Source: Butyricicoccus pullicaecorum DSM 23266 | Lineage (GTDB): Bacteria > Bacillota > Clostridia > Oscillospirales > Butyricicoccaceae | Assembly: GCF_900167005.1 (NCBI RefSeq) | Contig: NZ_FUXW01000001.1 | Span: 496,001-560,000 of the forward strand | Length of the DNA: 64,000 bases | Direction of reading: 5' to 3' | Part shown: piece by piece, positions 4,571 to 52,677 of the stretch | Layout of the letters: every line of letters begins with the position of its first letter | Position numbering within the stretch: position 1 is the stretch's first letter | Notes under the pieces: model-generated | Database searches by the model: none | What the model saw: only the letters and a program-made list of their open reading frames with translations | Told to the model about the DNA's origin: nothing | Made by a program: the position numbers and the translations under genes

Positions 4571-5179
4571 TTAAGTGGTCACCTCCATCGGTGGTAGTCT
4601 GAGGGTTGTTACGCTGCACATCACGCCGCCCGGATAAGCCGGGACAACGCCATAGGCTGGCAGGTATTGCGGCAGCTGGGTGGTCACCGGCGACGGAATC
4701 AGTGCGCTGCCGAGGTACAGGGTTGTGTTGACCGGGATAGCCTGAAGAATAGGCAAATGCGCCGGCTTGGCTTCGTCGATCGCGTCTGCAATTATCCGCC
4801 ATTTAGATAGTCCGTCCTCACGGTTGATCGTCATCGTGATATAGCCATTGGCAAAACCGACCGCAACGCTGCCGAGGCTGTATGTGTCGCAGATCTCTTG
4901 CAGTAAGCTGCGGTCGGCCTTACGGGACATCAGCCACTTGCTGCGCACAGCCGCACGGCGCTCATCCAGCGTCTGACCACTGCGCGGAATCAGTCCCAGC
5001 GCACGCTCCCAGATGGGCAGCGCCCATGTCAGGCCGTCAAAGTACCTGTTTTCGTGCAGCGCCTGCAGGTCGGCCTCCAGCTGATCGAGCGAGCCGCCGG
5101 CGGCCTGATACAGTACGCCCAGCCACGGGTCACCGCGATAGTCGCGGTGCAGCATATTAAGCAGCTTATCCCGCCACAT
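4571..5179 (-). CDS. Baseplate wedge protein, DUF2313 / Mu gp48 / XkdU-like
   Basis: 202 residues with the family's N-terminal helix pair (LYQAAGGSLDQLEADLQALHENRYFDGLTWALPIWERALG). In Mu, P2 (gpI) and PBSX (XkdU) this protein sits with the gpJ-like wedge protein in the baseplate. It overlaps the upstream baseplate J gene by 14 bases. Confidence 0.85.
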   Translation of the reverse strand: MWRDKLLNMLHRDYRGDPWLGVLYQAAGGSLDQLEADLQALHENRYFDGLTWALPIWERALGLIPRSGQTLDERRAAVRSKWLMSRKADRSLLQEICDTYSLGSVAVGFANGYITMTINREDGLSKWRIIADAIDEAKPAHLPILQAIPVNTTLYLGSALIPSPVTTQLPQYLPAYGVVPAYPGGVMCSVTTLRLPPMEVTT

Positions 5180-6236: not shown

Positions 6237-6681
6237 TCTCGCTCACCTCCAAGATTTCGCCGGTCGTCTTGAGCGTCACGGTAAACGTGATGTGCAGCAG
6301 GCGATCGCGGCGATCAAATGTAAAATTATCTGCCCGGTCGATGGCCGGACAGAGTGCGCATGCCTCGCGGATCTCGCGGGCGAGCTCGGAATGAATAAAA
6401 CCGGGCGGCACCTGCCGCATACCGATGAGCTGCTCGCCGGTGTGCCCAAAGGCCGTACCCTCGTAGACCGTAAACCGATCCAGATGGGTAATCAGCATCA
6501 GGTGAATCCATTGCCTGACCGCAGCGGCGCGGCTGCGCAGGACTGGGGTGCCGTCCACGATGACAAATTGTTTTTTGTCGGAATCAAATGCCAGAGTGTC
6601 GCCGATTTGGGCATCCTGGCTCGTATCATCTGCTGGGATGACCGCGATAAAACCGGTGTCATCCGGGAACATTTGTGGCAT
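6226..6681 (-). CDS. Baseplate protein DUF2634 (XkdS / gpW-like)
   Basis: 151 residues matching the XkdS pattern: an N-terminal strand-rich part, then LRSRAAAVRQWIHLMLITHLDRFTVYEGTAFG, and a C-terminal beta section. Related to T4 gp25/P2 gpW baseplate proteins at the inner ring. Position between the XkdR-like and XkdT-like genes agrees. Confidence 0.82.
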   Translation of the reverse strand: MPQMFPDDTGFIAVIPADDTSQDAQIGDTLAFDSDKKQFVIVDGTPVLRSRAAAVRQWIHLMLITHLDRFTVYEGTAFGHTGEQLIGMRQVPPGFIHSELAREIREACALCPAIDRADNFTFDRRDRLLHITFTVTLKTTGEILEVSEIVG

Positions 6682-6685
6682 ACTC

Positions 6686-7012
6686 TCAACCTCCTAATCG
6701 GTCGATCGCGCAAAAGGTGCGCTGTCCGACCACGATCATCTGATCGCCGACCTTGAGCGGCGACGGAAAACAGGGGTGATCGCAGTTTCCGCCGCAGTCG
6801 CAGCCATTAAAAACACAGGTGGGCAGGGGAGAGAGCAGCCGCTGCACGGTCTCAGACACGCGCAAAAACGGGCCGGTCGCCATAACCTCGCCGTCCATCA
6901 GCGCGATGGTCAGCGGCGACAGACTAACCACCGGGCCGATATAGTACCCGGCGGGCGGCTCTTTGCGCCCCATGCGTCGCAGCATGTCGGCAAAATCACT
7001 GTCGTAACTCAT
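6686..7012 (-). CDS. DUF2577-family baseplate protein (XkdR-like) with Cys-rich loop
   Basis: 108 residues, predicted mainly beta, with the IGPVVSLSPLTIALMDGEV core of the XkdR/DUF2577 family. An insertion CVFNGCDCGGNCDHPCF (about residues 67-83) holds five cysteines and could bind a metal ion, which is uncommon in the middle of this short protein. Overlaps the preceding gene by four bases. Confidence 0.75.
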   Translation of the reverse strand: MSYDSDFADMLRRMGRKEPPAGYYIGPVVSLSPLTIALMDGEVMATGPFLRVSETVQRLLSPLPTCVFNGCDCGGNCDHPCFPSPLKVGDQMIVVGQRTFCAIDRLGG

Positions 7013-7980
7013 GGTGCGATTACCTCCAGACTCATGGTGTGCTGCGGCGCATAGGTGTGGGTGACCTGTTTGATGATCCAGTCACCGGTCAGACCGAATG
7101 CGTCACTGGAAAAGCGCAGCATCGTGCCGGCGCGTACGTCCGCGCCCAGCAGATTATCAACCTTGCGGGTCCGTGTGAGCCGGTTGAGCTCTCGGAGCTT
7201 TTGCGACGCAAGCTGCTGCGCCTGCGCCGCTGTCGTGCCCTCGTCGGCTGATTCCATGTGCTGCAGCCAGCCGTATTTGCTGATGCTGCCGCTGTCAGTC
7301 GCGGTTGCCAGAATGCGGGCGGTGTCGCCCTCCTCGCGGTAGACCGATACCTGATTGCGCAGATCGTCCATGCTGTCCTCACCGCTGACTGCGCCCAGAC
7401 TCCATGTCGGATCAAACGGGCGCAGATTGCGCGCCAGCTGCACGCTGAGCGCGATCGGCGTGGTAGGGTAGGGGTAGATGCACAGCCCGCGATCGGGTTC
7501 GACACGGCTAAAATATTTGATGCCCCGCTCGGCGGTGACCTTGTCCAGGATGTCCGACAGGATCGTGCTGGGCTCCTGAGCAATGTATACCTCGGTGATA
7601 GTGGTCGGCATACTGGGCACGCTGCCCACGCTGACACCCGCTTTTTGGCACAGCTGCCGGATGGCGTCATCTGCCGCTACGCCGTTGCACTGGAAAATGA
7701 TCTTGCTCTTGTTGAGGTAAACACCAAAATCATTGGCGGTGATGCTGCCATCCAGCCCGGTTTTGGTGATGATGCCCCGGAAAATCATGGTACTGCCGTT
7801 AAACAGCTGCCATTTATCGCCTGACGTAAATGTAAACGCGGGCATCAGCTTGTCGTGCGGATTGCGCACGGCCTTGCAGCTGATCGACATGGACAGCTGC
7901 GCAATATCGTCCGTGCTGGTCAGGTCTCCGATGCGTGCGGTGACATCGTAGCCGTTGCAAATTACCTTGTAATCATCCAT
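7009..7980 (-). CDS. Tail hub protein, XkdQ / YqbQ family (late control D-like)
   Basis: 323 residues. It starts YKVICNGYDVTARIGDLT and ends with the beta-rich hub domain ending DWIIKQVTHTYAPQHTMSLEV, as in XkdQ and other gpD/gp27-like hub proteins that join tube to spike. The 150-residue middle (LSDILDKVTAERGIKYFSR...) is typical of the family. Confidence 0.85.
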   Translation of the reverse strand: MDDYKVICNGYDVTARIGDLTSTDDIAQLSMSISCKAVRNPHDKLMPAFTFTSGDKWQLFNGSTMIFRGIITKTGLDGSITANDFGVYLNKSKIIFQCNGVAADDAIRQLCQKAGVSVGSVPSMPTTITEVYIAQEPSTILSDILDKVTAERGIKYFSRVEPDRGLCIYPYPTTPIALSVQLARNLRPFDPTWSLGAVSGEDSMDDLRNQVSVYREEGDTARILATATDSGSISKYGWLQHMESADEGTTAAQAQQLASQKLRELNRLTRTRKVDNLLGADVRAGTMLRFSSDAFGLTGDWIIKQVTHTYAPQHTMSLEVIAP

Positions 7981-7986
7981 GCGGCG

Positions 7987-8403
7987 TCACCCCGTCACCA
8001 GATTGTACTCGCGGGCGGTCAGACTGTAACTGATGCGCCCCATGCGGCTGGCAGGCTGCCAGCTGAAGGAATCGATCGTACACGGCATATTGAGGATCTC
8101 GCTGCCGTCTGTGGCTGTCCAGACTACGCGCAGCGGGACTCTTGCCTCCCGCCAGCGCCGGAAAAACTGGATATAGGTCTGCGCGCCGATTGGCGCAGAC
8201 TGGTTGCCAAACCGCAGCCGACGGTCAGGAAACCAGGAATTGATGGTCAGCGTGCGCAGCCTCATCGGGCCGATGAGGTTAATGTCACGTGATAGCCCCG
8301 TAAACGTGTCGTTGTTTTGCGGCTCGTCTACACTGGTATCGACCGAGACAAAGGGCAGCACTAGGATTTCTGCCCGGTTGTCCGCCGAAAACGTCATGTC
8401 CAT
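7987..8403 (-). CDS. Baseplate/tail protein in the XkdP position, without LysM
   Basis: 138 residues, beta-rich (ILVLPFVSVDTSVDEPQNND..., FFRRWREARVPLRVVWTATDG). It lies between tape measure and hub genes, where PBSX-like phages carry XkdP, whose full-length form has a LysM domain. No LysM motif is seen here, so this is either the shortened core or another hub-associated protein. Function is inferred from position. Confidence 0.6.
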   Translation of the reverse strand: MDMTFSADNRAEILVLPFVSVDTSVDEPQNNDTFTGLSRDINLIGPMRLRTLTINSWFPDRRLRFGNQSAPIGAQTYIQFFRRWREARVPLRVVWTATDGSEILNMPCTIDSFSWQPASRMGRISYSLTAREYNLVTG

Positions 8404-8416
8404 ATTGCTGCCCTCC

Positions 8417-10777
8417 TTACATATTTCCGTGCGCGGCCAGGATCTTGCCGACGATGATCTCGCCCATTTCGTCCGCGTACTGTTCGTTGCCGATCATGTT
8501 GCCCATGACCGTTACATTGACCGTCACGCCGCCGCCCTGCACCATACGGGTGCTGACATCATGCGGGATGATCTGGGTGCCGCTGGGCAGGTTGATGATC
8601 TCGCCGCCGCGCTCGTTTACGCGGGTCAGACCACCGCGCCAGTAGCTCGTGCCCAGTGCATTGCCGGCGAGCTTTCCGGCAACCCAACTGATCGCGCCCT
8701 TACCGCCCTCATAGATATTACCGATGACAGGGATGCTGCTGATTTTATTGTCGAGCCATGAGAAAAATCCGGACACCTTTTCTTTGGCGGCGTCAAATGC
8801 ACCAACGATGCTGTCTTTGATACCGGTAAATACCTCGGTCGCCTTGGCCCATAGCTCGCTTGCCTTGGCTTTGACGGTATCCCAGTTTTGGTACAGAGCC
8901 ACACCGGCAGCGACCAGAGCACCCAAACCCAGTACGATCCAGCCGATCGGGGTGGCGACAAATGCAGCATTAAGCGCCCACTGGGCAGCCGTGGCAGCGG
9001 TTGTGGCTGCCGTCACCGCACCGGTTGCAATGGTAGAAGCCGCCATGCCGATTTTGTTGGCAGCCATCACAGCGGTGTTTTTGACCCAGGCGGCACTGGA
9101 TACTGCCAAGGCAGCAGTTTGTCCTGCAAGCCATGCCGCACCGGCAGCGGCCTTGTGCGCCAAGAGCGCCGTTTTATTGGCAGTTGCGACCGCAGTGTTT
9201 TTAATCCACGCAGCCGTAGATTTTGCCAGGGCAACCGTCTGACCTGCCAGCCATGTCGCACCGCCTACGGCCTTGTGTGCAATCAAGCTGGCACGGTTTG
9301 CACCTGCCGCTGCTGTGTTTTTGATCCATGCAGCGGTTGAGGTAGCGAGTGCTGCCGCCTTGGTGCGCAGCGGGCCAGCAACCGCGATCACAGTCTCCTT
9401 AAATAGTCTAAGGTCATTGACTGCACGTGCCACGTTGCCGGCGAACTCTAGCACTTTGATAGCACCAAATGTGATACCTAACGCAATAAGTCCGTTTTTT
9501 AGCGTATCACTATGAGTAAACATCCATTGCATTGCCGTGGATGCAGTATCAAGTGCTGCGGAAAAAACAGTTCCAAATTGGGATGCCAATGCATCGATCG
9601 TGCCGTCACTCTGCCACTGGCTGATTTTGTTGGATAGCGCAGTGACCGCGCCGGTCGCCTTGCCTGCAATGGCTTCATAAAACGTAATGCCGGCACCTTC
9701 AACAGCCGATTTGAGCAGCGTCAGCTGACCGCTGAGGTTGTTGTTCATGGTGTCTGCCATCTTCTGCGCGGTGCCATCCGAGTCGGCAATCGCCTGCGTC
9801 AGATTATTAAAATCTGCGTCGCTGGCATTAACGATTGCGAGCAGACCGCTCATGGCTTCCTTACCCGCAATACCGGCAGCATACTCGGCCTTTTGTGCAT
9901 CGGTCAACCCGGCAAACTTTTGTCGCAGATCGACCATCAGCGCAGACAGCGGCTTGACGTTGCCCCGTGTATCGGTTAGGGATACACCGAGCGCATCCAT
10001 GTATCCAGCAACGGTGTCACTGGGTTTTGCCAGGTTGGTCAGTGCGCCACGTAGCGCGGTACCGGCTTTCTCGCCCTTGATGCCAGCGTTGGCCATCAGA
10101 CCGATTGCAACCGCAGTATCTTCGATACTATACCCCAATGCGCCCGCGACCGGGGCCACATACTGAAACGTATTGCCCATGAGGGACACGTTGGTGTTGG
10201 AGCTTGAGGACGCCTTTGCCAGCACGTCGGCAAAATGTGCTGAGTCGCTCGCTTTGAGTCCGAATGCGGTCAGCGCGTCGGTAACAATGTCAGAGACTTC
10301 GGCCAGATCCTCGCCTGATGCCGCCGCTAGATTCATGATGCCGGGCAGACCGCTGACCATCTGGTCGGCTTTCCAGCCGGCCATCGCCATGTATTCGAGC
10401 GCTTGTGCGCTCTCGGTCGCGGAAAATTTAGTTTTCGCGCCCATCTCCTTGGCTTTGGCTGTGAGGGTCGCAATCTCGGTTGCGGTTGCACCGCTGATAG
10501 CTTGCACTTTGGACATTTGTGCTTCAAAATCCATACCGGACTTAATGGCAAACGCACCAAATGCACCGGCCGCAGCAACACTGAGCACACCTAGCTTTTT
10601 GACAGTATCCGTAACCGCTTTGGTAGCTTTATTCTTAAAGCTTGTGACATTTCTAGTAGCACGAATCATTTCAGTTGAAATATTCGCACCGCTTTTTTGC
10701 GCTTCTTTAGCAGCCTTCACAAGTCCCTTGGACATATTGTCGCGCAGGTTTAGGATTGTGTTGATAACTTTAGCCAT
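8417..10777 (-). CDS. Phage tail tape measure protein, TP901 family
   Basis: 786 residues. Residues about 65-330 match the TP901 tape-measure core (FEAQMSKVQAISGATATEIATLTAKAKEMGAKTKFSATESAQALEYMAMAGW... and GIKGEKAGTALRGALTNL). This is followed by hydrophobic helical stretches and an Ala-rich section of about 40-residue repeats (see the repeat entry). The C-terminus is Gly-rich with NERGGEIINLPSGTQIIPHD, common in tape measures. The protein sets tail length and is ejected ahead of the DNA. 786 residues would predict a tail of roughly 110-120 nm by the usual 0.15 nm per residue. Confidence 0.95.
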   Translation of the reverse strand: MAKVINTILNLRDNMSKGLVKAAKEAQKSGANISTEMIRATRNVTSFKNKATKAVTDTVKKLGVLSVAAAGAFGAFAIKSGMDFEAQMSKVQAISGATATEIATLTAKAKEMGAKTKFSATESAQALEYMAMAGWKADQMVSGLPGIMNLAAASGEDLAEVSDIVTDALTAFGLKASDSAHFADVLAKASSSSNTNVSLMGNTFQYVAPVAGALGYSIEDTAVAIGLMANAGIKGEKAGTALRGALTNLAKPSDTVAGYMDALGVSLTDTRGNVKPLSALMVDLRQKFAGLTDAQKAEYAAGIAGKEAMSGLLAIVNASDADFNNLTQAIADSDGTAQKMADTMNNNLSGQLTLLKSAVEGAGITFYEAIAGKATGAVTALSNKISQWQSDGTIDALASQFGTVFSAALDTASTAMQWMFTHSDTLKNGLIALGITFGAIKVLEFAGNVARAVNDLRLFKETVIAVAGPLRTKAAALATSTAAWIKNTAAAGANRASLIAHKAVGGATWLAGQTVALAKSTAAWIKNTAVATANKTALLAHKAAAGAAWLAGQTAALAVSSAAWVKNTAVMAANKIGMAASTIATGAVTAATTAATAAQWALNAAFVATPIGWIVLGLGALVAAGVALYQNWDTVKAKASELWAKATEVFTGIKDSIVGAFDAAKEKVSGFFSWLDNKISSIPVIGNIYEGGKGAISWVAGKLAGNALGTSYWRGGLTRVNERGGEIINLPSGTQIIPHDVSTRMVQGGGVTVNVTVMGNMIGNEQYADEMGEIIVGKILAAHGNM
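9075..9355 (-). repeat. 120-bp tandem repeats inside the tape measure gene
   Basis: Units start at 9075, 9195 and 9315 (plus-strand GTGTTTTT anchor), exactly 120 bases apart: two full copies and a partial third. Each encodes a 40-residue block with A-W-[IV]-K-N-T-A, H-K-A and W-L-A-G-Q-T at fixed places. The copies have diverged at many third positions, so the duplication is old or selected to diverge. In-frame units of this kind would change tail length in 40-residue steps. Confidence 0.85.
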
Positions 10778-10985
10778 AAAGTTTACCAGCCTCCTTTGCT
10801 GCGTCCGGAGACAGTGCCGCGATTACTGCATTGTGTGTGAGCGTGTACGTCTCCTTGTAATAGATCTCGCGTGCTGCCTGCAAAAACGCCTGCTCGGCAG
10901 GAGACGCGCCGAGCACATAGGCAGGGGCGAGGCCTCGCGGTGCGTAAAACGCCGCGAGGTTCATCACCCAGTCACGCGCGATCAG
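10770..10985 (-). CDS. Tail assembly chaperone, frameshift extension (gpGT-like T part)
   Basis: Reading frame -1 relative to the upstream chaperone gene, entered at the slippery site at 10985-10991. It continues LIARDWVMNLAAFYAPRG... for about 71 residues and ends eight bases inside the tape measure start. A separate start (GTG 10967) exists but has no good ribosome site, so expression by frameshift, giving a fusion of about 219 residues, is more likely. In many tailed phages the longer product binds the tape measure while the short form coats it. Confidence 0.75.
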   Translation of the reverse strand: MIARDWVMNLAAFYAPRGLAPAYVLGASPAEQAFLQAAREIYYKETYTLTHNAVIAALSPDAAKEAGKLYG

Positions 10986-11428
10986 TTTTTTGCCGGATTT
11001 TCGGGTGCTACGTCCTCGCCAGAGTCATCCTTTGCGTCCTCTCCAGCGTCACCCTCTGCGCTCTCCGAGGAGGGGATGAAACCGAGGAATCGGAACAGAT
11101 CGCCGCCCATCGTGTCGCGGGTGGGAATATCAAAAAGCGCCGGGACAGTGTCCAACGGATCCTTGACACCGATCGCCTCGCGCAGCTTGGGGTCCTGAAG
11201 CTGCTCACAGCAGTGATACAGACCATCGTCTACGACCTGCAGGATATCACCCGTGCCGCTGCGAGCGGCCTGAAATCGTCCATACAGATCCATCATCTTA
11301 CCCTCGGTCGGCTTGCGGCACAGCAGATAATCTTCTGTGCCGGGCACCGGAATTTTTCCAACCTTCAGGCGATCCGCTTCGCGCTGCGCGCGCTTTGCGA
11401 CCAGCGCGTCAAAACTGATTTGTGCCAT
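10982..11428 (-). CDS. Tail assembly chaperone, XkdN-like (gpG equivalent)
   Basis: 148 residues. The N-terminal 110 (FDALVAKRAQREADRLKVGKIPVPGTEDYLLCRKPTEGKMMDLYGRF...) match XkdN/Phage_TAC_5. The C-terminus is an acidic tail, SESAEGDAGEDAKDDSGEDVAPE, then stops right after a slippery run. It lies between tail tube and tape measure genes, the fixed position of this chaperone. Confidence 0.88.
   Translation of the reverse strand: MAQISFDALVAKRAQREADRLKVGKIPVPGTEDYLLCRKPTEGKMMDLYGRFQAARSGTGDILQVVDDGLYHCCEQLQDPKLREAIGVKDPLDTVPALFDIPTRDTMGGDLFRFLGFIPSSESAEGDAGEDAKDDSGEDVAPENPAKN
10985..10991 (-). promoter_or_regulatory. -1 ribosomal frameshift site A AAA AAC
   Basis: In the chaperone frame the last codons read GCA AAA AAC TGA. 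The heptamer A-AAA-AAC is a canonical X-XXY-YYZ slippery sequence and lies directly before the stop. A one-base backward slip reads straight into the downstream open frame, which has no ribosome site of its own. The stop codon next to the slip site probably adds to the pause. Confidence 0.8.
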
Positions 11429-11443
11429 AAGTGCTTGTCCTCC

Positions 11444-11893
11444 TTAGTATGTAATGACTTCCAGAAACTCAAAATCCGAGAATTTATAGGGGATACTCTC
11501 GGTAATGATAGATTTCTTCTCGAAATTGGCAATATTTGCCTCGGTAAAGGTAACCATGCCGATGCGGCAGCGTTCTCTTTTGCCGGTGGACGGGTTTTCC
11601 AGCAGCGTGATGATCTCGCACTCGGGGAAATCGCCAGACAGCATCGCCTGTACGATCTCGTGCGCGATCTCAGTATCAACCTTGAGGTATTCCAGCGTGC
11701 CCTCGCCCGACCAGCCGTTATACACGGCATAAGTCGCAGGGTCACCGCAGACGTTTACATCCTCAAAATCGCCGGTCATTTTGTTTTCGATTTTCTGTAC
11801 GGTGGCGAGCTCCTTGCCCCTCCACCAGACGTGACCGTGCGAGCCGCGCAGAATGCGGTTCAGCGCCTGCTGCGTCAGTTTGTTGTTTGCCAT
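11444..11893 (-). CDS. Tail tube protein (XkdM-like)
   Basis: 149 residues, single-domain beta protein (RILRGSHGHVWWRGKELATVQKIENKMTGDFEDVNVCGD, EGTLEYLKVD) matching XkdM/DUF2001 inner tube proteins. It follows the sheath gene, as in all PBSX-like contractile tails. Confidence 0.9.
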   Translation of the reverse strand: MANNKLTQQALNRILRGSHGHVWWRGKELATVQKIENKMTGDFEDVNVCGDPATYAVYNGWSGEGTLEYLKVDTEIAHEIVQAMLSGDFPECEIITLLENPSTGKRERCRIGMVTFTEANIANFEKKSIITESIPYKFSDFEFLEVITY

Positions 11894-11907
11894 AGGTAAT
11901 GTCCTCC

Positions 11908-13002
11908 TTATGCCATGTTGACCGTAAATTTGAGGTTTTCCATGCTGCCGAGGATCTTGATGTTGGCCGCAATAAAGACCGATCGCTTAAAGGCCATCTT
12001 TTTGACCTTGTCATCGTCCCACTCGGCAGCCTCGTCCTTACCGGTGCCGAGCCATGCCGAGCGCTGCGCCTCAACGTCAATGTCTGCCAGATTGTCATAC
12101 TCCCGGTCGAGCACATCGGTGCCCGGCTGAGCCAGTTCGCGGAAGTAAGCATTCACCGAGGCGATAAAGAGCATCTGGTTGTCCAGATTATTGCGGTAGT
12201 TGCCCAGATAGACATCGCGGAACACCGCACGGATATCGTCCGCGATCAGGTTCATGGCCTCGACCGTCTCGATGTACTGCATATCCTCGGTCGCGGTCGT
12301 GCCGTTGGTCGTGGTCAGGCTGTTGCAGCCCGACAGGATTCGCACCTCGTCAACGTCCGCATTGTACAGGACGAGCTTGCCAGCCTTTACTGCCGCCTCA
12401 CTGTCTTCAATTTCTTCAACGTGGACAAGGTTGGAGCACCGATAGTTGGTCGAGCCGCGCTTGATATTGCAGCTCGCCAGAATGCCGATCAGGCTGGCGA
12501 CATACCAGTCGCCGGCCTTTTCGCCGCGTGCGTCGGCAAACGTGACCTTGGGGCTTGCAAAGTTCACGATCTGCTTGTTGTCCGGTGCTGCGCCGTTGTA
12601 GACGACAGCACGATAGTAGATCTGCCGTTGCTCCTTGGCCTTGATCCAGCTCACCAGCGCCGCCGCGTCCTCGGACTTGGCGTTGGCTACGCCGATCCAG
12701 CCGGTCTTGACGTTGCGCTCAATGATGGCCAGCGCGTCTGCCAGCGTGCCCTCGGTGCCGATGCGCACGACATAGGTCATGTACGGGGCAAAAGTCAGCA
12801 CATCGCGGATCTGCTGGAGGTTGTCCGAGGTGTACAGGGCGCTGTCTGCATCGGCCTCGGGGATGCTGGTATATTTTTTGATGTCAAACTCCTCGTTGGT
12901 GTCATCCCGGATGATGAGCGTGGCAATGCCGCGCTCGCTGCGTGCAATCAGGCTGGTTGCACGCTGGATAAACTCCACAAGGATGCTGGGGATAGATGCC
13001 AT
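11908..13002 (-). CDS. Tail sheath protein (XkdK-like)
   Basis: 364 residues. It shows the sheath family's features: an N-terminal R-x-x-R-G-I-A-T segment, a central FASPKVTFADARGEKAGDWYVASLIGILASC block, and C-terminal VFRDVYLGNYRNNLDNQMLFIASVNAYF. Its presence makes this a contractile (myovirus-type) tail. Neighbouring tube and chaperone genes follow the PBSX order. Confidence 0.93.
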   Translation of the reverse strand: MASIPSILVEFIQRATSLIARSERGIATLIIRDDTNEEFDIKKYTSIPEADADSALYTSDNLQQIRDVLTFAPYMTYVVRIGTEGTLADALAIIERNVKTGWIGVANAKSEDAAALVSWIKAKEQRQIYYRAVVYNGAAPDNKQIVNFASPKVTFADARGEKAGDWYVASLIGILASCNIKRGSTNYRCSNLVHVEEIEDSEAAVKAGKLVLYNADVDEVRILSGCNSLTTTNGTTATEDMQYIETVEAMNLIADDIRAVFRDVYLGNYRNNLDNQMLFIASVNAYFRELAQPGTDVLDREYDNLADIDVEAQRSAWLGTGKDEAAEWDDDKVKKMAFKRSVFIAANIKILGSMENLKFTVNMA

Positions 13003-13017
13003 ATCATGTCCTCCTTG

Positions 13018-13464
13018 TCAGGTGTTGATTGTGACGGACAGCTCCTCAATGAGCTCGCCATCATCATGGCTGGGGCGCTCCTCCAGCCAATCGTATTGGA
13101 TTGTGCCGATCAGCACGCCGTCGGTCGTGTCAAAATCAATGCCGTCCTCGCTGATGATCTCAAAGGTGCCAACCATCAGACTGTCATGCAGCGCACTGCG
13201 CAGCGCGTCCTGCATGGCATAATTGGCATCGCGCCATTTGTGAGCGTCCGGGGCAAAATAATATATGCGCGCAGTCAGGGAACGCGCGTCCATGTGGGTC
13301 GTGTCCCGGCTCGCTTGATCGTTCGCCAGTTCGATTTTGATGGATGGCCGCACGATCGGCTCGGTCAGATCGCCGGCAATGACCGGCGCTGTGATGCCAG
13401 CGTCGGCGCACGCCTGCTCGATCGTCTCGCGCAGGGCGATGTAAATGTCAGTAATACCAATCAA
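13018..13464 (-). CDS. Tail terminator protein (DUF6838 / XkdJ-like)
   Basis: 148 residues, alpha/beta (IYIALRETIEQACADAGITAPVIAGDLTEPIVRPSIKIEL..., YYFAPDAHKWRDANYAMQDALRSAL). Start taken as TTG 13464, which overlaps the TGA of the previous gene and has GGGAGG about seven bases upstream. A longer frame exists upstream but lies inside the previous gene. Such proteins cap the sheath and tube and join them to the head. Confidence 0.75.
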   Translation of the reverse strand: MIGITDIYIALRETIEQACADAGITAPVIAGDLTEPIVRPSIKIELANDQASRDTTHMDARSLTARIYYFAPDAHKWRDANYAMQDALRSALHDSLMVGTFEIISEDGIDFDTTDGVLIGTIQYDWLEERPSHDDGELIEELSVTINT

Positions 13465-13922
13465 GACTCTACCTCCCGCGCGACCTCGTCCAGAAAGCCC
13501 TCGCACGCCCGCTCGAATTCAGGACGAAATTGATTTGCTGTATTCTCAAAAATGTGGTCACCGGGAACAAACTTGACTCGCTCTTTTCCCGGTTGGTGAG
13601 TTACCATGTTATGTCCTTTCTCCAGAAGGTGCGCATGAGGTGATGAAGAATAAACTCGAATCGCCTGAACATTCTCGGCGCGAAAATTATAGGGCTTTCC
13701 GCGTTTGATGGTATCAACATAATGATCGCTGCCTGCGTACTTCTTAGGCTTTTTATGTTTGCGGCCATAAACCTGCATAGCGCGAGACTTTGTCTTGCTG
13801 CGCAATTTATTGCCTTGCTTTTGCAGAAGCTTCTTAGCTCGTTTAGGGTTTCGTTTGGCTGCGGCTTCCAACTCATCGGCAAATGCATACAACTCCGAAA
13901 GGTCAAGTCCGTCAGATACCAT
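13461..13922 (-). CDS. HK97 gp10-family head-tail protein (XkdI-like)
   Basis: 153 residues, very basic N-terminal half (RNPKRAKKLLQKQGNKLRSKTKSRAMQVYGRKHKKPKKY), then the gp10 core with HAHLLEKGHNMV. This family acts at the head-tail junction. The sequence is visibly richer in A+T than the flanking genes, so it may have been exchanged between phages. Confidence 0.85.
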   Translation of the reverse strand: MVSDGLDLSELYAFADELEAAAKRNPKRAKKLLQKQGNKLRSKTKSRAMQVYGRKHKKPKKYAGSDHYVDTIKRGKPYNFRAENVQAIRVYSSSPHAHLLEKGHNMVTHQPGKERVKFVPGDHIFENTANQFRPEFERACEGFLDEVAREVES

Positions 13923-45672: not shown

Positions 45673-46596
45673 TTATTCCAAGATATAACGCTGATACCAC
45701 TGACAAGCCTGCTTAACAGCTTTGTGGACGGGCATTCCGGCACCAGACAGGATGGTCAGCCAGCCGATTTTGTCTTCTGGCACATCAGACGGAGCCGGGG
45801 ACAGGCTGACAACGTTGCCCACGCAGTCGGCAAGCAGCAGACCGGCATCGGCCGTCTGGAGAAATCCCTTGACGCGGAAAGTATCCTCGATAAACATCTC
45901 GATGAACTTTTGTAGGTCATAGCGAGAAATTTCCGGGGAAATTTTAACATGCAGTTTGCGCACGGTCAAATCGGCGGTCAAGGGCATAGATTCACCGGGA
46001 GCAGGCGTGTGCTGTGCGGACAGGAGATCAAGCAGAGAACCATCAACCTGACCGAAAGATGTCTCAATGATGGGAATTTCAGGCCGTTGGCCGCGAACGA
46101 GAGCGCGGGTCTGGTCAAGCTGTTCGTCGGAAGCCTTGTCGATCTTGTTGATGACCACAACATCACTCGAGGCCAGCTGCTTGACACAGGTGCGCGCGGT
46201 GGCATACAGCTTGGGAAAACGCACCGCGTCGACCAGGCAGACCGCACCCTGATAATCGATGTGCGGGAAACGGTCGGTCTGAGAGAACAGACGGCGCACG
46301 CCGGTGGGATCGGACAGACCGGAGGCTTCGACCAGAATCACATCGGGATGCAGATCGACAGAACCACGCAGAACCGACTCGAACTGATCCAGACGGCAGG
46401 AGCAGAAGACCGAACCACCTGAGATTTCCTGCAAGTATGCGCCAAGGCTGGAAAGGAGGGTGCCGTCGACACCCTCCTGACCGAACTCGTTGATAATCAG
46501 CTGAATCTTCTGACCGGCGAACAGGTCAAGGAATCGTTTGAGAAAGGTGGTTTTTCCCGCACCCAAAAACCCGGTAATCAGATACAGTTTGCTCAT
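45673..46596 (-). CDS. CobW/COG0523-family GTPase (metal chaperone)
   Basis: 307 residues. Walker A TGFLGAGKTTFLKRF at the N-terminus, then GGSVFCSCRLDQFE in the place of the family's CxCC metal motif, ILVEASGLSDPTGV and VINKIDKA. The second domain (LHVKISPEISRYDLQKFIEMF...) is present. COG0523 proteins hand metal ions to partner enzymes using GTP. Start 46596 is fixed by MSKLYLITGFLGAGKTT. It is four bases after the UroD-like gene, so its client is probably that zinc-dependent methyltransferase. Confidence 0.9.
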   Translation of the reverse strand: MSKLYLITGFLGAGKTTFLKRFLDLFAGQKIQLIINEFGQEGVDGTLLSSLGAYLQEISGGSVFCSCRLDQFESVLRGSVDLHPDVILVEASGLSDPTGVRRLFSQTDRFPHIDYQGAVCLVDAVRFPKLYATARTCVKQLASSDVVVINKIDKASDEQLDQTRALVRGQRPEIPIIETSFGQVDGSLLDLLSAQHTPAPGESMPLTADLTVRKLHVKISPEISRYDLQKFIEMFIEDTFRVKGFLQTADAGLLLADCVGNVVSLSPAPSDVPEDKIGWLTILSGAGMPVHKAVKQACQWYQRYILE

Positions 46597-46600
46597 AGGC

Positions 46601-47995
46601 TTACTTTCTGCTGTCGCAGACAGCGATCGCCTCATTGATGGCAGCTTCCAGCTCTGCCTTGGTGGGGATGATCGAGCGGTATTTGAGCTCACCGTTGATG
46701 TACATGGACGGCAGGTTGGGTACACCCATCTTGACGCAGCGAGCGACATTTTCCTTGTAAATAAACTTATATTCGACCATATCGATCTTGTCGCCGAAGG
46801 TTTCCTTTGCCTGGTTTGCAGCACCCATCATGTAGCCGCAAGCTGCGCACTGTGCCGAATCGAGGGTGAAGACCTCGACGAGCGGCTTGGTGAGAGAAGC
46901 ATAGTCGGGAATGACAACGTTCGAGGTGTCGATTTCCTCTGCCTGATAGTTCTTGACCATCTCGCGTACTACGTCGGTCTCGATGGCAGCCTGTGCAACG
47001 CCGATGCAGTTTTCAACCGGTACGTTGTAGGGCATGTCGCAGCCGGGAGCCAGGATGAAGTTGCGCTTGTCCGGGATGGAGTCGAGCAGATCGACGGCAA
47101 ACTTCATGTTGTCCTGCTGGTTGCCGAGCAGCATGATGGAGGTCAGCGGGATGTTGCCGCCAATGGCAACGTTATAGCGGTCGGTGATCTCCTTGGCAGC
47201 CAGAAGGTTCACGTTTTCGTCGACGGAAATAGAGTCCGGATTGGTCTGGCACATAACCTCGATGTTTCGGGTTGCATCGCCGCAGACGAAGAACGAGGAC
47301 AGTGCGCCCTGTGCACGGATGTGCTCGAACAGCTCGGTGTAGGGCTCGGTCATGTACTGCTCAAAGTGTGCGGTGGAAATCTGGGAGATCAGCGGGTCTA
47401 CCAGTGCGATGACATCCATGCCAGCCTCGATGTAGTAGTCGGCCATCTTCATGCACACGCGATTGCAGAATGCGAACAGGCTCTCGACTTCTTCTTCAAA
47501 GTCGAACATATCGGTGAACAGGTTGTTGCCGCGCAGGTGGGAAGCCAGGGTGAAGGGACCGCAGATCAGGCCATACAGTGCGGTGGTGTCGCCGACTGCT
47601 TCCTTCATGCGATGCATAACATCGAGTACATAGGGGATGCGTCCGCTCTCCTTGGTCGGGATCTTGCAGTCGCAGGGCGTTACGGGCGGCTCTTCGTCGC
47701 TGCCGTCGAGCGGATGGGAGCTGACAGACGGCGGGCAGTCATCGGCCCAGGTCAGGCCGCAGCCCAGGCACTCAGCCTCGATCTGTAAGTCAAAGATGAC
47801 CGGCTGGCCATCGGGCTTATACAGACGGTTAACTTCCATCAGGGACTCGAACGCCTTGTCAGCGTCGGTCAGCATTTCGGTTGCGGTGTAGCCCTTCAGG
47901 TGACCGGCGTGAACGCCTGCGAAGGGAACCCAGGGGGCACGTTCGGTGGACTCGTGGCGCAGGGTGCGGAGCAGCAGATCTTTCATGTGGAACAT
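46601..47995 (-). CDS. UroD-type methyltransferase fused to a thioredoxin-like domain
   Basis: 464 residues. Residues 1-345 are a URO-D/MtaA-like barrel: ADYYIEAGMDVIALVDPLISQIS, PYTELFEHIRAQG, and FILAPGCDMPYNVPVENC with the zinc-ligand Cys seen in corrinoid-linked methyltransferases. Residues about 375-460 form a thioredoxin-like fold with CAACGYMM (redox CxxC) and PSMYINGE (cis-Pro). It lacks the usual features of haem UroD. No corrinoid protein is encoded nearby. The fusion suggests methyl transfer coupled to thiol chemistry; the substrate is unknown. Confidence 0.85.
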   Translation of the reverse strand: MFHMKDLLLRTLRHESTERAPWVPFAGVHAGHLKGYTATEMLTDADKAFESLMEVNRLYKPDGQPVIFDLQIEAECLGCGLTWADDCPPSVSSHPLDGSDEEPPVTPCDCKIPTKESGRIPYVLDVMHRMKEAVGDTTALYGLICGPFTLASHLRGNNLFTDMFDFEEEVESLFAFCNRVCMKMADYYIEAGMDVIALVDPLISQISTAHFEQYMTEPYTELFEHIRAQGALSSFFVCGDATRNIEVMCQTNPDSISVDENVNLLAAKEITDRYNVAIGGNIPLTSIMLLGNQQDNMKFAVDLLDSIPDKRNFILAPGCDMPYNVPVENCIGVAQAAIETDVVREMVKNYQAEEIDTSNVVIPDYASLTKPLVEVFTLDSAQCAACGYMMGAANQAKETFGDKIDMVEYKFIYKENVARCVKMGVPNLPSMYINGELKYRSIIPTKAELEAAINEAIAVCDSRK

Positions 47996-48025
47996 CCTCC
48001 TAAGAATGTAAAATTACGTGTTTTT

Positions 48026-48463
48026 TCAAAGAGATTGGTCGGAATCCGGTGTTTGCTGTGCACAGCAGCAGGCAGACGGTGCGGGCGTGTGATTGGGACA
48101 GGCTGACGTCAGCAAACCGATGACCTCATCGATTCCCTGACGGTAGTCGGTCAGCGTGTCGATCCAACTGTCCATGCAGGCGCGGCCAGCGTCGGTGATG
48201 GCAAACACACGCTTGCCCATCGCGCCGCGGGCGGCACTGTCGAGCGTGGACGAGATCAGTCCCCGCGCTTCCATCTCGCGCAGAACACGGTAAACGCCGG
48301 TTGCATCCGGTTTTGCATCGCGCCACAGTGCAGTCTGGCCGAGCTTGCGCAGCAGATCATAGCCGTGGTCGGGCGACTGTGCGAGCGCGGACAGGATGAT
48401 GGGCTGGACGAAGCGCATGAGCGTTCCGCCCTGACAGGCACATTTGGCATTTTTGATGCTCAT
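48026..48463 (-). CDS. PadR-family regulator with Cys clusters at both ends
   Basis: 145 residues. Central PadR winged helix (MRFVQPIILSALAQSPDHGYDLLRKLGQTALWRDAKPDATGVYRVLREMEARGLISSTLD). N-terminal CACQGG and C-terminal CPNHTPAPSACCC carry six cysteines, unusual for PadR and suited to binding a metal, a metalloid or a reactive ligand. It is read with the UroD-CobW genes (30 bases before) and faces the radical SAM/ABC operon. Confidence 0.8.
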   Translation of the reverse strand: MSIKNAKCACQGGTLMRFVQPIILSALAQSPDHGYDLLRKLGQTALWRDAKPDATGVYRVLREMEARGLISSTLDSAARGAMGKRVFAITDAGRACMDSWIDTLTDYRQGIDEVIGLLTSACPNHTPAPSACCCAQQTPDSDQSL

Positions 48464-48820
48464 ACCGGGTGACCCTCCTTTGTGTTGGCTCTAGTATAAC
48501 AAATCGAATGGGCGCGGGATTGTAGGATATTGCTCTGGTTGGTACAATCTTCTTTTTCTGAAGGATTATGCACAAATTTGTGAATGACAGACAAATAAAT
48601 AATTAGAATTTGTGCAGATGATACGAAAATCATCGAAAAGAAGGACGCGCAATGCGATTTTCTTGCCTGTCCATTGCACAAGACGGCAAGATATTTCTAA
48701 AAAAAATAAGATACTGCAAGTCAGGAAAAATCAAATCTGCTATGCTGATGAAACTAGAGTAAGTCCAATATTAGACTGACACGAGATAGCGATTTGCAGA
48801 CAAAGCAGGAGGGACTGGAT
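48464..48820. promoter_or_regulatory. Divergent control region of the UroD and radical SAM operons
   Basis: 357 bases without a gene. It holds TATACT (48494-48499, minus strand) facing PadR, the palindrome CACAAATTTGTG (48571-48582), a strongly AT-rich middle, TATGCT near 48740 facing right, and AGTCCAATATTAGACT (about 48760-48775), a near-perfect palindrome just before the radical SAM gene. Both palindromes are candidate PadR sites. Confidence 0.5.
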
Positions 48821-49813
48821 ATGACAAACTTGGAGCTGATTGCATACGCAGAGCAGAACGCCCAGAGCGGAACACTGCTGACACATGACCAGATTGTACA
48901 GCTGTTATCGATTGCGCCGGAGAGCGCAGAATGGAGTGCACTGGGCGCAGCGGCACGCCGGGTTGCACACACATTGACCGGAGATCGGGCTTACCTGTGG
49001 GGTGCCATCGGGGTGGATTTCGCGCCCTGCTCAATGAACTGTGATTTTTGCTCACTGGGTGAAAAGTGGGGCATCGTGCGCGAGACGCGAAGCTATGACG
49101 CGCGGGAAACCGTGGCGCAGGTGCGCGAGTATGCCGAGGCTGGGGTGCGTTGGATTGTGCTGCGCACGACCGAGTTTTATTCGCAGGATGCGCTGGGTGA
49201 CATGATCCGAACCATCCGTACAGAAGTACCGGGAGACTATGAAATCGGCCTCAACATCGGAGAATTTGACCTTGCAAAGGCCAACTGGCTGGCCGCATGT
49301 GGTGTGGATTTTATCTATCACTCGCTGCGCCTCGGTGAGGGCAAGGACACCCGATTTGATCCCAAGGTGCGTCTGTCCACCTTGCAGGCGGTCAAGGATT
49401 CGCCGCTCAAGCTGGTCTTTCTGGTCGAGCCGGTCGGTATTGAGCATACAAACGAAGAGATTGCCGACCTGATTCTGCTGACCGCGCAGTATGGCGCTAT
49501 CGTTTCGGGCAGTATGGCGCGCATTCCGGTGGCAGGTACGCCGCTCGGCGTGCATCCGCAGGTGAGTGACGCGCGCATGGCGCAGATCATCGCAGTCACC
49601 CGTCTGGCCTGCGGCAGCTGTGTCCCGGATATCTGCATTCATCCGGGTACCCGCCTGGCGATGGAGTTCGGCGCAAATGTGACGGTCATCGAGACCGGTT
49701 CGGTGCCGCGTGATACCTGCTGCTGTTCGGGTGGTAAGTGGAACCAGTTTGATGCAGCGCGTGCCAAGGAGCTGTTTGCGCAGGCGGGCTACACCGTCCA
49801 TCAGACTGCATGA
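48821..49813 (+). CDS. Radical SAM enzyme, BioB/HydE-like
   Basis: 330 residues. The radical SAM cluster motif is CSMNCDFC (Cys 70, 74, 77), in a BioB-like full barrel (AGVRWIVLRTTEFYSQ..., GLNIGEFDLAKANWLAACGVDFIYHSLRLGEGKDTRF, SGSMARIPVAGTPL). Near the C-terminus CGSC...C and DTCCCSGG could hold a second cluster. Start 48821 has AGGAGG. It heads an ABC transporter operon, so it probably acts on an imported compound, or makes the one transported. Confidence 0.85.
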   Translation: MTNLELIAYAEQNAQSGTLLTHDQIVQLLSIAPESAEWSALGAAARRVAHTLTGDRAYLWGAIGVDFAPCSMNCDFCSLGEKWGIVRETRSYDARETVAQVREYAEAGVRWIVLRTTEFYSQDALGDMIRTIRTEVPGDYEIGLNIGEFDLAKANWLAACGVDFIYHSLRLGEGKDTRFDPKVRLSTLQAVKDSPLKLVFLVEPVGIEHTNEEIADLILLTAQYGAIVSGSMARIPVAGTPLGVHPQVSDARMAQIIAVTRLACGSCVPDICIHPGTRLAMEFGANVTVIETGSVPRDTCCCSGGKWNQFDAARAKELFAQAGYTVHQTA

Positions 49814-49823
49814 GGGAATCAAT

Positions 49824-50780
49824 ATGAGATCGTTTTACAAGTGGGTCGCACGACTGTCCTGCGTCCTTTTGCTGGCTACAGCGTTGACCGGTTGTGCATC
49901 GCAAGAAGGCAAACAGGAGACCATGCACGCGACGGTCGGAACCTGGAAGACTGCCCAGACGCTGACGCCATACTTTTATCAGGATTATGCGGATATGGCC
50001 ATTGAGGTCAAACCGTTCACCAATCCGGGAGATCAAAAGACCGCACTGCTGGCTGGCAGTCTGGATATGACCGGCACGACCATTCCGACCGCCATTCAGG
50101 CGGCAGCAGCCGGGGAACCGATCAAGATTGTGGCCAGTCTGTGCAATAAATGTTCGGCGCTTGTCGTGGCGGCCGATTCGGACATTCAGACCGCAGCTGA
50201 TCTCAAGGGAAAGACCATCGCCTATGTGCCGGGTACGATGCATCACGTTCTGCTGCTCAATGTACTCGAGCGTGCCGGTCTTGACCCGGATACCGATGTT
50301 AAACTCGTTCGAGTTGACTTTTTCGATATGGGTCAGGCGCTGGCCGGGGGACAGATCGACGCATTCCTGAGCGGAGAACCCTATCCGACACAGGCGGTGC
50401 AGGACGGGTACGGCAGAATTTTGGAATATCCGTATTTTGACGACAGCATCGGTACGATCAACGCGGCCATGATCGTCACCGAGGACACCATCGAGCAGCG
50501 TCCCGAGTTGGTGCAGAAGCTGGTCGATGCTCATGTGCAGGCGACCCAAAACATGATCGATCACCCAGATGACTGGTTGGATTTGGCCGCATCGATGGGA
50601 ACCGACCGGGAGTTGCTGACCGCCTCGGCGGACAATATTGAGCTGTGCTGGCAGATTGATGAGGCTTACATCGAACACACCGAGCGATTGGCCGAGCAGA
50701 TGCAGGCGCTCGGTCTGATCGACACCGTGCCCGACATTCAGGACATGTTCGATTTGTCTTTCCTGGAGCATGCCGCATGA
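49824..50780 (+). CDS. ABC transporter substrate-binding lipoprotein, NMT1/SsuA-like
   Basis: 318 residues. Signal peptide with lipobox LTGC (Cys about residue 23), then the NMT1/THI5/SsuA fold (KTALLAGSLDMTGTTIPTAIQAAAAGEPIKIVASLCNKCSALVV..., GKTIAYVPGTMHHVLLLNVLERAGLDPDTDVKLVRV). The family binds sulphonates, nitrate, pyrimidines and similar small anions or rings. A CNKC pair beside the ligand pocket position is unusual. Confidence 0.87.
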   Translation: MRSFYKWVARLSCVLLLATALTGCASQEGKQETMHATVGTWKTAQTLTPYFYQDYADMAIEVKPFTNPGDQKTALLAGSLDMTGTTIPTAIQAAAAGEPIKIVASLCNKCSALVVAADSDIQTAADLKGKTIAYVPGTMHHVLLLNVLERAGLDPDTDVKLVRVDFFDMGQALAGGQIDAFLSGEPYPTQAVQDGYGRILEYPYFDDSIGTINAAMIVTEDTIEQRPELVQKLVDAHVQATQNMIDHPDDWLDLAASMGTDRELLTASADNIELCWQIDEAYIEHTERLAEQMQALGLIDTVPDIQDMFDLSFLEHAA

Positions 50781-51571
50781 AGACCAGAAAATTCGACCCG
50801 GTGGGCTGGATTGTGCCGATTTTGGTGATTGCGGTCTGGTGGGCTGTGACCCGGTTCGGCATCGTCGCACCCTATCAGCTGCCCAGTCCGCAGACGCTTG
50901 CGCGGGTGCTGGTGGACTTTGCAACCGGTTGGTACGGACTGACCCCGTATGCCGGGACGATGTTTTTGCACCTGTGGCACAGCCTGTACCGTGTCCTGAC
51001 CGGGTTTGCACTGGCGGTCGTGCTTGGACTGCCGCTCGGCTTTGCCACCGGACGGGTTCGGCTGCTGCGCCGGTTGTTTGACCCTTTTCTTGGACTCATT
51101 CGCAGTGTTCCCGGCATCGGATGGCTGCCCATTGCGATCGTCTGGTTCGGTGTCGGTGAGGGAAATACCCGGTTTCTCATCACGCTGGCGGCCTTCTTTC
51201 CCATTTATCTCAATACCATGCAGGGCGCGGCTGGTGTACCCGATTTGACCGTGCGTGCAGGCCGTATGCTGGGTGCTCGCGGTTTGACCCTCTTTGCCAC
51301 CGTGATTTTCCCGGCTGCATTTTCCCAAATTGCTGTCGGTCTGCGGCTTGGCTTGGGTGTCGCGTGGGCGTATCTGGTGCTCGGTGAGGTCACCGGTGTG
51401 ACCGAGGGGCTGGGCGCGGTCATGACCGACGGGCGTATGCTCGGGCAGGTCGATATCGTGCTGGCCGCGATGATCGTAATTGCGATTGCGGGCAAACTGA
51501 CCGACTGGCTGCTGTGTGCGCTGTGCCGCTGCATCAGTCCGACCGTGCGCAAAGGAGGAAGAAACGCATGA
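50777..51571 (+). CDS. ABC transporter permease, SsuC/TauC-like
   Basis: 264 residues, six spans, with the EAA-type loop GAAGVPDLTVRAGRMLGARG preceding the C-terminal spans. Overlaps the binding-protein stop by four bases. Confidence 0.92.
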   Translation: MKTRKFDPVGWIVPILVIAVWWAVTRFGIVAPYQLPSPQTLARVLVDFATGWYGLTPYAGTMFLHLWHSLYRVLTGFALAVVLGLPLGFATGRVRLLRRLFDPFLGLIRSVPGIGWLPIAIVWFGVGEGNTRFLITLAAFFPIYLNTMQGAAGVPDLTVRAGRMLGARGLTLFATVIFPAAFSQIAVGLRLGLGVAWAYLVLGEVTGVTEGLGAVMTDGRMLGQVDIVLAAMIVIAIAGKLTDWLLCALCRCISPTVRKGGRNA

Positions 51572-52332
51572 ATCAGGGACTTGTGATTGACAATCTGTGT
51601 CATCGGTTTCATACTGAAAACGGGCAGACCGTAGATGCACTGAATCACCTGTCGCTGGAAGTTCCGGCGGGGCAGATCGTGTCGGTGATTGGTGCGTCGG
51701 GCTGCGGAAAGAGTACCTTGCTCAGCCTGATTGCCGGATTTGATCGTCCGACACAGGGAGAGATCACGCTGGATGGCGTGTCGGTCGTGGGAAAGCCCAG
51801 TCCCGACCGCTGTCTGGTCTTTCAGTCGCCTGCACTGTTTGAATGGCTGACCGTGCTGCAAAACGTGGCGTACGGACTCAAACGACAGGGTATCCCGCGT
51901 CAGGACAGACGTGCACAGGCGATGGATATGCTGGCACGAGTGGGACTTTCCGGCTTTGAAAAGCAGTATCCGCATGAGCTGTCGGGCGGTATGCAGCAGC
52001 GCGTCGCGCTGGCACGTGCACTCGTGATGCGTCCGCGCGTGCTGTTTATGGACGAACCCTTTGCCGCGCTCGATGCCCAGCTGCGCCAGCAGATGCAGCA
52101 GCTTGTCCGCAGTTTGTGGCGTGAACTTGGACAGACCATCCTGTTTGTGACCCACGATATCCGTGAGGCGGTCGCGGTCGCGCATCGTGTGGTCGTTCTG
52201 ACACCACGGCCGGGAACGGTCAAGGCGGTCTTTCCGGTGCCGGGTTCGATGGAGAACCGGGAAGCATTTCTGCACACCGATGCATACGAAACGCTGTGCG
52301 CACAGATTGGGGACACCCTGTTCGATCGATAA
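51568..52332 (+). CDS. ABC transporter ATPase, SsuB/TauB-like
   Basis: 254 residues. Walker A GASGCGKST, Q-loop LVFQSPALFEWLTV, signature LSGGMQQRVALARAL, Walker B VLFMDEPFAALD and H-loop FVTHD. Start 51568 overlaps the permease by four bases. Completes the transporter. Confidence 0.93.
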   Translation: MNQGLVIDNLCHRFHTENGQTVDALNHLSLEVPAGQIVSVIGASGCGKSTLLSLIAGFDRPTQGEITLDGVSVVGKPSPDRCLVFQSPALFEWLTVLQNVAYGLKRQGIPRQDRRAQAMDMLARVGLSGFEKQYPHELSGGMQQRVALARALVMRPRVLFMDEPFAALDAQLRQQMQQLVRSLWRELGQTILFVTHDIREAVAVAHRVVVLTPRPGTVKAVFPVPGSMENREAFLHTDAYETLCAQIGDTLFDR

Positions 52333-52347
52333 GCAAGGAGAAAAACC

Positions 52348-52677
52348 ATGGAATTTGCATATTGTAAACTGGAAATCTTTATTCCTGAGAGCCATTTGGG
52401 AGTATTGCAGCAGGCACTCGCGGAAGTGGATGCCGGACACATCGGCGCGTATGATTGCTGCCTGTCCTATCACCCGGTAACCGGCTGTTGGCGGCCGCTG
52501 AACGGGACAAACCCTTATCTCGGAACGGTAGGGGAGATTTGCACCGCACCCGAGCTCAAGGTCGAGGTGACTTGCAAGACCGAGCGCGTCGCGCAGACCA
52601 TTGCCGCCATCAAAGCCGTGCATCCCTATGAAGAACCGGTCATCAATGCGATTCCCTTATACCAGGTCGGCTTATAA
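52348..52677 (+). CDS. Small NIF3/YqfO-insert-like (CutA-fold) protein
   Basis: 109 residues (YCKLEIFIPESHLGVLQQALAEVDAGHIGAYDCCLSYHPVTGCWRPLNGTNPYLG..., AIKAVHPYEEPVINAIPL). This matches the central domain of YqfO-type NIF3 proteins, a CutA-like trimer, here as a separate protein. The P-Y-E-E-P motif is characteristic. It is last in the radical SAM-ABC operon and is followed by a terminator. Metal or ligand sensing is possible. Confidence 0.8.
   Translation: MEFAYCKLEIFIPESHLGVLQQALAEVDAGHIGAYDCCLSYHPVTGCWRPLNGTNPYLGTVGEICTAPELKVEVTCKTERVAQTIAAIKAVHPYEEPVINAIPLYQVGL

Follow-up and report, generated by a model that had tools for sequence, protein, structure and literature searches.

Positions 45673 to 52677 of the window, by which we mean the whole 64,000-nucleotide stretch of Butyricicoccus pullicaecorum DSM 23266 analysed here (contig C20, 496001-560000, of the 3.27 Mb genome G000), carry two groups of genes facing away from each other. 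The minus strand encodes a PadR-type regulator, a protein combining a UroD-type methyltransferase domain with a thioredoxin-like domain (UroD-Trx) and a CobW-type GTPase. The plus strand encodes a radical SAM (S-adenosylmethionine) enzyme, an SsuA-like binding protein (SBP), the permease and ATPase of an ABC transporter and a small CutA1/YqfO-like protein (Table 1). All genes named in a preliminary description of this DNA were recovered as open reading frames in their places, with agreeing Pfam families. These assignments are well above chance; the CutA1 match of the last gene covers 45 residues only. In the following, module A denotes UroD-Trx and CobW, and module B the radical SAM enzyme, SBP, permease and ATPase.

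Table 1. Genes and a candidate regulatory site at the locus (window coordinates).
Feature	Position	Strand	Basis
COG0523/CobW-type GTPase, 307 aa	45673..46596	-	Pfam cobW 4e-34
UroD-Trx, MtaA/MtbA-like methyltransferase domain and C-terminal thioredoxin-like domain (CAAC)	46601..47995	-	Pfam URO-D 2e-50
PadR-type regulator, N-terminal CxC and C-terminal CCC	48026..48463	-	Pfam PadR 6e-11
AAGTCCAATATTAGACT (AGTC-8N-GACT), possible PadR operator upstream of the radical SAM gene	48761..48777	.	motif comparison
BioB/HydE/PylB-fold radical SAM enzyme, CxxxCxxC	48821..49813	+	Pfam Radical_SAM 4e-07
SsuA-like lipoprotein binding protein	49824..50780	+	Pfam NMT1 1.5e-29; NCBIfam SsuA_fam over cut-off
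ABC permease, TauC/SsuC/SaoP-like	50777..51571	+	Pfam BPD_transp_1 9e-18
ABC ATPase, TauB/SaoA-like	51568..52332	+	Pfam ABC_tran 2e-34
Small CutA1/YqfO-like protein	52348..52677	+	Pfam CutA1 25.6 bits (cut-off 22.4)

Searching named genome contigs with three radical SAM queries yielded 11 loci (L014-L024). The complete module B set was found in nine of them, all except L022 (Intestinibacillus) and L024 (RUG13615), and L014, L015 and L016 additionally held padR, uroD-trx and cobW. In L015, from Butyricicoccus sp. Marseille-Q5471, the seven genes lie on one strand (7129-13480). UroD-Trx was encoded in 10 of 12 radical SAM genomes, the own genome included, with 45-96% identity in the nine others. 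In an even class sample of 391 Clostridia genomes the radical SAM gene was present in 13 (1e-20), nine of a close type (E 1e-98 or better) and four of a divergent type (1e-62 to 1e-69; G299, G339, G400 and G453); pairwise identity fails to separate the types (36-38% for G235 and G256, 31-36% for the divergent sequences). With the own genome removed from this sample, UroD-Trx occurred in 8 of 12 radical SAM genomes compared to 31 of 378 others (Fisher p 1.8e-6), in 4 of 8 with the close type (p 0.0045) and in 4 of 6 with both radical SAM and SBP (p 0.0011), values that are too small because the genomes are related. Module B itself is rare but tight: SBP was detected in 8 of the 391 genomes (1e-30), all seven strong matches adjoin a radical SAM gene, and the eighth is an orphan (G400, 2.3e-51).

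Both gene sets are linked within about 12 kb in six of the 14 genomes that encode UroD-Trx and the close radical SAM type (the own genome, G060, G061, G062, G070 and G396); the linkage in L169, from another family, is independent. The idea that the two sets are neighbours in related genomes met with a mixed result: it holds for four genomes (the own and three named Butyricicoccus or Agathobaculum) and for L169, while elsewhere the sets lie apart in the same genome. The co-occurrence in 10 of 12 genomes, the one-strand run in L015 and the adjacency in L169 indicate that the two gene sets are probably functionally linked, as had been proposed.

The UroD protein is a methyltransferase relative, as first described: in addition to its URO-D domain, its profile matched the MtaA structure 4ay7 (E 8.8e-30) as well as the thioredoxins 1nho and 1fo5. 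The thioredoxin part was matched by 1nho from the PDB at residues 373-456 (9.6e-06) and weakly by NCBIfam at residues 373-455 (24.3 bits, cut-off 92.75). Homologues suggest a start at 47986 (MKDLL). F236-V-C238-G, C79 and C319 are invariant in 41 of 41 UroD-Trx sequences, and the thioredoxin cysteines C386 and C383 are present in 41 and 40 of these, respectively. The HICG of MtaA aligns at FVCG, Phe replacing the His of His-x-Cys throughout, and both Cys are retained. UroD-type S-methyltransferases ligate zinc by a His-Cys-Cys pattern (PMC10418091), and the replacement of the zinc-motif His by Phe suggests altered metal binding in UroD-Trx. Cys79 was considered as a new zinc ligand and dropped; MtaA has a Cys at the aligned position too, therefore the conservation of Cys79 tells nothing. 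UroD-Trx resembles MtaA/MtbA in its UroD fold family, both zinc-motif Cys, corrinoid-system neighbours and a COG0523 partner, but differs in the fused C-terminal thioredoxin, the Phe and NCBIfam scores under the cut-offs (MtaA_Meth 126.8/400, mtaA_cmuA 118.2/235.4, MtbA 115.7/600). Long forms of 542-558 aa (amino acids) occur in L188, L189, L191, L192 and L193; in L188, L189 and L192 the extra tail resembles, by eye, a second thioredoxin-like stretch without CxxC.

Within the class sample UroD-Trx was found in 40 of the 391 genomes (E 1e-60). Of 43 matched places 40 loci were fetched (the own locus, one truncated at a contig end and one interrupted by stops were omitted), and neighbours were labelled by tblastn (1e-5), which may be too permissive for the AraC-type PocR labels. 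In 32 of the 40 loci the gene immediately after UroD-Trx encodes a CobW protein, and 38 have such a gene within 8 kb. Within the same distance a corrinoid protein was labelled in 16 loci, a BCCT protein in seven and an MttB-type protein in five, and 19 loci hold at least one corrinoid-protein, RACo-type, PocR-type or MttB-type gene. Haas 2009 (PMC2770081) reports COG0523 proteins adjoining mtaA and corrinoid methyltransferases; co-localization with the latter, a mark of COG0523 subfamily 13, was also observed for the UroD-Trx-linked CobW. The GTPase is a predicted metal chaperone for UroD-Trx.

Pfam and NCBIfam searches of a gene run in Emergencia sp. (L048) identified, besides UroD-Trx, a corrinoid protein, RACo, PylB, PylC, PylS, PylD and a Dimeth_Pyl protein. 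Within 5171-8119 of this locus an MttB-type gene contains one in-frame TAG and an MtbB-type gene one in-frame stop; they adjoin pylB, pylC, pylS and pylD, and the cluster likely uses pyrrolysine. L024 shares a contig with UroD-Trx, at a distance of about 11 kb, and by the same searches encodes MttB, a corrinoid protein and BCCT. A gene run in a Lachnospiraceae locus (L050, 666-5943) joins UroD-Trx (45%) to DUF5714, a lipoyl-domain protein, CobW, a disulphide oxidoreductase and a lipoate ligase, which suggests a possible lipoyl dithiol partner.

The preliminary description noted no corrinoid protein in this gene set. That the system works without one is not supported: 16 of 40 UroD-Trx loci have one nearby, and the own genome encodes one as well. 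A B12-binding_2 search of the own genome gave no match on the contig of the window; the matches were a stand-alone corrinoid protein on C22 and MetH on C18, and one MTTB protein is encoded on C19. The corrinoid-protein region on C22 (L112, 5325-12063) comprises RACo-type, hydantoinase-like, DUF1638 and AraC/PocR-type genes. A Pterin_bind search of the own genome detected no stand-alone AcsE/MtgA-type folate methyltransferase, since MetH was the sole match. Of 20 genomes searched in this way, 11 gave a single match, of MetH size; the usual partner is thus not a dedicated folate methyltransferase. Some type 1 mlp clusters likewise lack a folate methyltransferase (PMC10418091).

The radical SAM protein shares its full-length fold and CxxxCxxC with BioB, HydE and PylB. 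Its model (mean pLDDT 85.8) matched BioB 8vdw with Z 31.6 (2.7 A, 310 residues), HydE 5ff2 with Z 29.5 (root mean square deviation 2.8 A, 313 aligned) and PylB 3t7v with Z 28.0, a common fold that proves no function. In NCBIfam the protein is BioB/PylB-like but far under both cut-offs (PylB 42.5 bits against 348.2), and it has invariants of its own, among them EPxGxEH and GANV. In the alignment to 8vdw non-Cys residues stand at the CCSLG and VCSGG of BioB, which hold the auxiliary-cluster ligands. Biotin synthesis was rejected, as the auxiliary cysteines are absent in this alignment. A C-terminal CCC is present in 7 of 13 sequences. A metal site formed by this CCC or by the CxxC of SBP was rejected, neither being universal.

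In three of the four genomes with the divergent type, the radical SAM gene (34-36% to that of the window) directly follows uroD-trx and cobW (L154, 10862-11839; L159; L162), apparently as one operon. In L209 (8665-11505) the neighbours of a radical SAM relative are a C_GCAxxG_C_C protein on one side and an uncharacterised protein of 464 aa on the other. Among Dehalococcoidia the gene was found in 2 of 275 genomes (G069 and the divergent G488, whose neighbours are uninformative), and the class was dropped as an independent hint. No relative was found in viral contigs.

The importer is of the SsuA/TauA type, confirming the original assignment. SBP passes SsuA_fam TIGR01728 (168.7 bits, cut-off 163.5), and the best match of its model (mean pLDDT 80.5) was SsuA 3e4r (Z 28.5, 2.8 A, 278 residues), on a par with 3un6 (Z 28.1), a Staphylococcus binding protein with bound zinc; TauA 6ssy (Z 25.8) and ThiY-type 3ix1 (Z 25.1) came next. 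As in the SsuA family, the ligand of SBP may be an aliphatic sulphonate. No TPP (thiamine pyrophosphate) or other riboswitch reached the Rfam gathering score in the window, 13 radical SAM loci, 20 UroD-Trx loci and 7 longer loci; uptake of a thiamine precursor was rejected on the missing TPP riboswitch and on the SBP model being nearer to SsuA than to 3ix1. The permease stays below the cut-off of every NCBIfam model listed. While SBP, permease and ATPase resemble SsuABC/TauABC in fold and sequence, the system of the window differs in its radical SAM partner (7 of 7) and in a frequent CxxC motif of SBP. Ssu/Tau systems have an oxygenase as partner.

The PadR cysteines C8, C10 and C96 are invariant in nine of nine sequences, and four of nine have the CCC tail. 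Few genomes encode relatives with CxC (7 of 391 below 1e-30). By coordinates, such a gene is next to that of the radical SAM enzyme in G000, G159, G178 and G072, representing four families of the class sample; others stand beside a RACo-type gene (G451), a CobW gene (G329) or Lipoyl/DUF5714-type genes (G275). A padR gene also comes after the module in L017 and is close to UroD-Trx in L048. The preliminary description suggested looking for shared palindromes in the divergent region, and no shared long palindrome was found between the PadR and radical SAM genes. A shorter motif, AAGTCTAATA, matched at 8 or more of 10 positions in 10 of 16 core loci, about 30-65 bases upstream of the radical SAM start (the match in L169 is doubtful), and was weaker or absent in the remaining core loci. 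Its summed score was 129 compared to a maximum of 119 among 300 shuffles. As the motif was picked by eye, after looking, it is weak evidence; AAGTCCAATATTAGACT in the window is a possible PadR operator. Distant CxC-like PadR relatives (L232-L235 and L239) lie beside paired ArsP_1-type permease genes, with Pfam run on L232 only; these regulators may be metalloid-responsive.

The last gene of the plus strand, presumably a stand-alone YqfO/NIF3 insert, scored 20.2 against the NCBIfam CutA cut-off of 120. It had been counted as a system member; among L014-L024, however, it was found only in L014 (76%), and it is no conserved part of the system. CutA1 and YqfO-like domains are linked in PMC8469502.

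Taken together, we favour, at about even odds, one regulated methyl-metabolism locus of two modules, combining SsuA-type ligand import, radical processing and corrinoid-thiol methyl transfer. UroD-Trx would move a methyl group between a thiol and a corrinoid protein encoded elsewhere in the genome, the COG0523 protein would supply its metal, and the fused thioredoxin may serve as reductant or as methyl-accepting thiol. The importer would take in one small, probably anionic organic compound (organosulphur or sulphonate), which the radical SAM enzyme would cleave or rearrange in the cytosol to give a thiol or methyl compound for module A. The CxC PadR would respond to a thiol-reactive ligand or a soft metal and control module B at the least. 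An organosulphur compound is suggested by the combination of an SsuA-type ligand with a thiol methyltransferase and a thioredoxin. Our confidence that two conserved modules act in one methyl-transfer pathway is moderate for their union and little for the substrate.

Several observations weigh against this, besides the relatedness behind the Fisher values. G064 and G069 have the radical SAM gene without UroD-Trx, and in the class sample the same is true of 4 of the 13 genomes with that gene (G072, G235, G256 and G365). UroD-Trx is far commoner than module B and therefore does not need it. No corrinoid-protein, RACo-, PocR- or MttB-type label was assigned within 8 kb in 21 of 40 UroD-Trx loci, some of them cut by a contig end. 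The CxxC of SBP is not universal, reading ANRC in L169 and CNKS in G178.

In one variant, which we regard as possible though unlikely, the corrinoid methyl group would pass to a Cys of the fused thioredoxin itself as a stand-in for coenzyme M, in bacteria of which many encode MetH as the sole pterin-binding methyltransferase, and module B would feed in a methylated compound via a new radical SAM reaction on the ligand taken up by the SsuA-type importer. Equally unlikely is the handling of soft metal(loid)s or organometals, with importer and radical SAM enzyme acting on organo-arsenic, organo-mercury or similar compounds, UroD-Trx transferring methyl to a thiol and PadR sensing the metal(loid). 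The CxC PadR with its CCC tail would fit, as would the permease pairs beside its distant relatives (ArsP_1 52.0 and 22.0 bits in L232, the latter below cut-off), a contig-cut ACR3 gene near the relative in L233, and, in L023, ArsR with an ArsP_1 permease some 0.9 kb away from the radical SAM gene. However, the PadRs found with ArsP are remote relatives (E 1e-26 to 1e-18, compared to below 1e-30), and Pfam assigns no arsenic or mercury family to any of the eight locus proteins. SaoX, SaoP and SaoA are named for the organometallic SAO system in PMC13188914. The importer belongs to the same broad group and is weakly similar to these proteins, but the scores lie far under the curated cut-offs (SaoX 78.4/300, SaoP 146.5/295, SaoA 220.1/360) and Ssu/Tau models score highest.

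Two unrelated operons that became neighbours by chance in one bacterial family would account for the genomes holding one module without the other and for linkage in only 6 of 14. We consider this quite unlikely given the co-occurrence, the L015 run and the L169 adjacency in another family, and given that the CxC PadR stands beside the radical SAM gene in four families and also beside RACo- and CobW-type genes.

Methyl-selenium recycling, in which UroD-Trx would methylate or demethylate a selenol, is improbable. The type 1 mlp clusters (Kountz and Balskus, PMC10418091) offer the model, with corrinoid-linked SCMT homologues in anaerobes, often without a folate methyltransferase, and a UroD-family SCMT homologue acting on selenide. 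However, these clusters hold two or three Mlps, nearly all with the His-Cys-Cys pattern that UroD-Trx lacks; they are marked by Mlp2, Mlp3, a corrinoid protein and a Ram protein together, whereas the locus of the window has one UroD gene. The main text of that paper mentions no CobW, radical SAM, PadR or ABC transporter, and thioredoxin in a reference only. A selD gene scored over cut-off in the own genome; counting all radical SAM genomes, 11 of 18 had such a match and seven had none, including G178 (96% complete) and G396 (99%); selenium as a requirement was dropped on this count.

Least probable is cobamide salvage, in which module B would import and modify a corrinoid lower-ligand base or precursor and so explain the co-occurrence with a corrinoid-using enzyme: the G178 operon (L210) is indeed flanked by cbiK at one end and by cbiG, cobJ and an ABC system judged BtuFCD-like by eye at the other, but this is a single locus, no cobalamin riboswitch exceeded the gathering score at the loci searched, and most class-sample UroD-Trx genomes are without module B. 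A C_GCAxxG_C_C protein is also encoded among the cobalamin genes around the L210 operon. The soft-metal, cobamide and selenium readings are all given lower odds than organosulphur methyl transfer.

As stated in the preliminary description, no described system with this gene set was found, here in the open-licence literature searched. The two-module locus would represent a widespread branch of corrinoid methyl metabolism among anaerobes of the gut and elsewhere, undescribed in that literature, in which a thioredoxin stands where methanogens use coenzyme M. The substrate of the radical SAM enzyme should equal the ligand of one easily screened binding protein, and the disposal of corrinoid methyl groups in bacteria without a dedicated folate methyltransferase would become directly testable.

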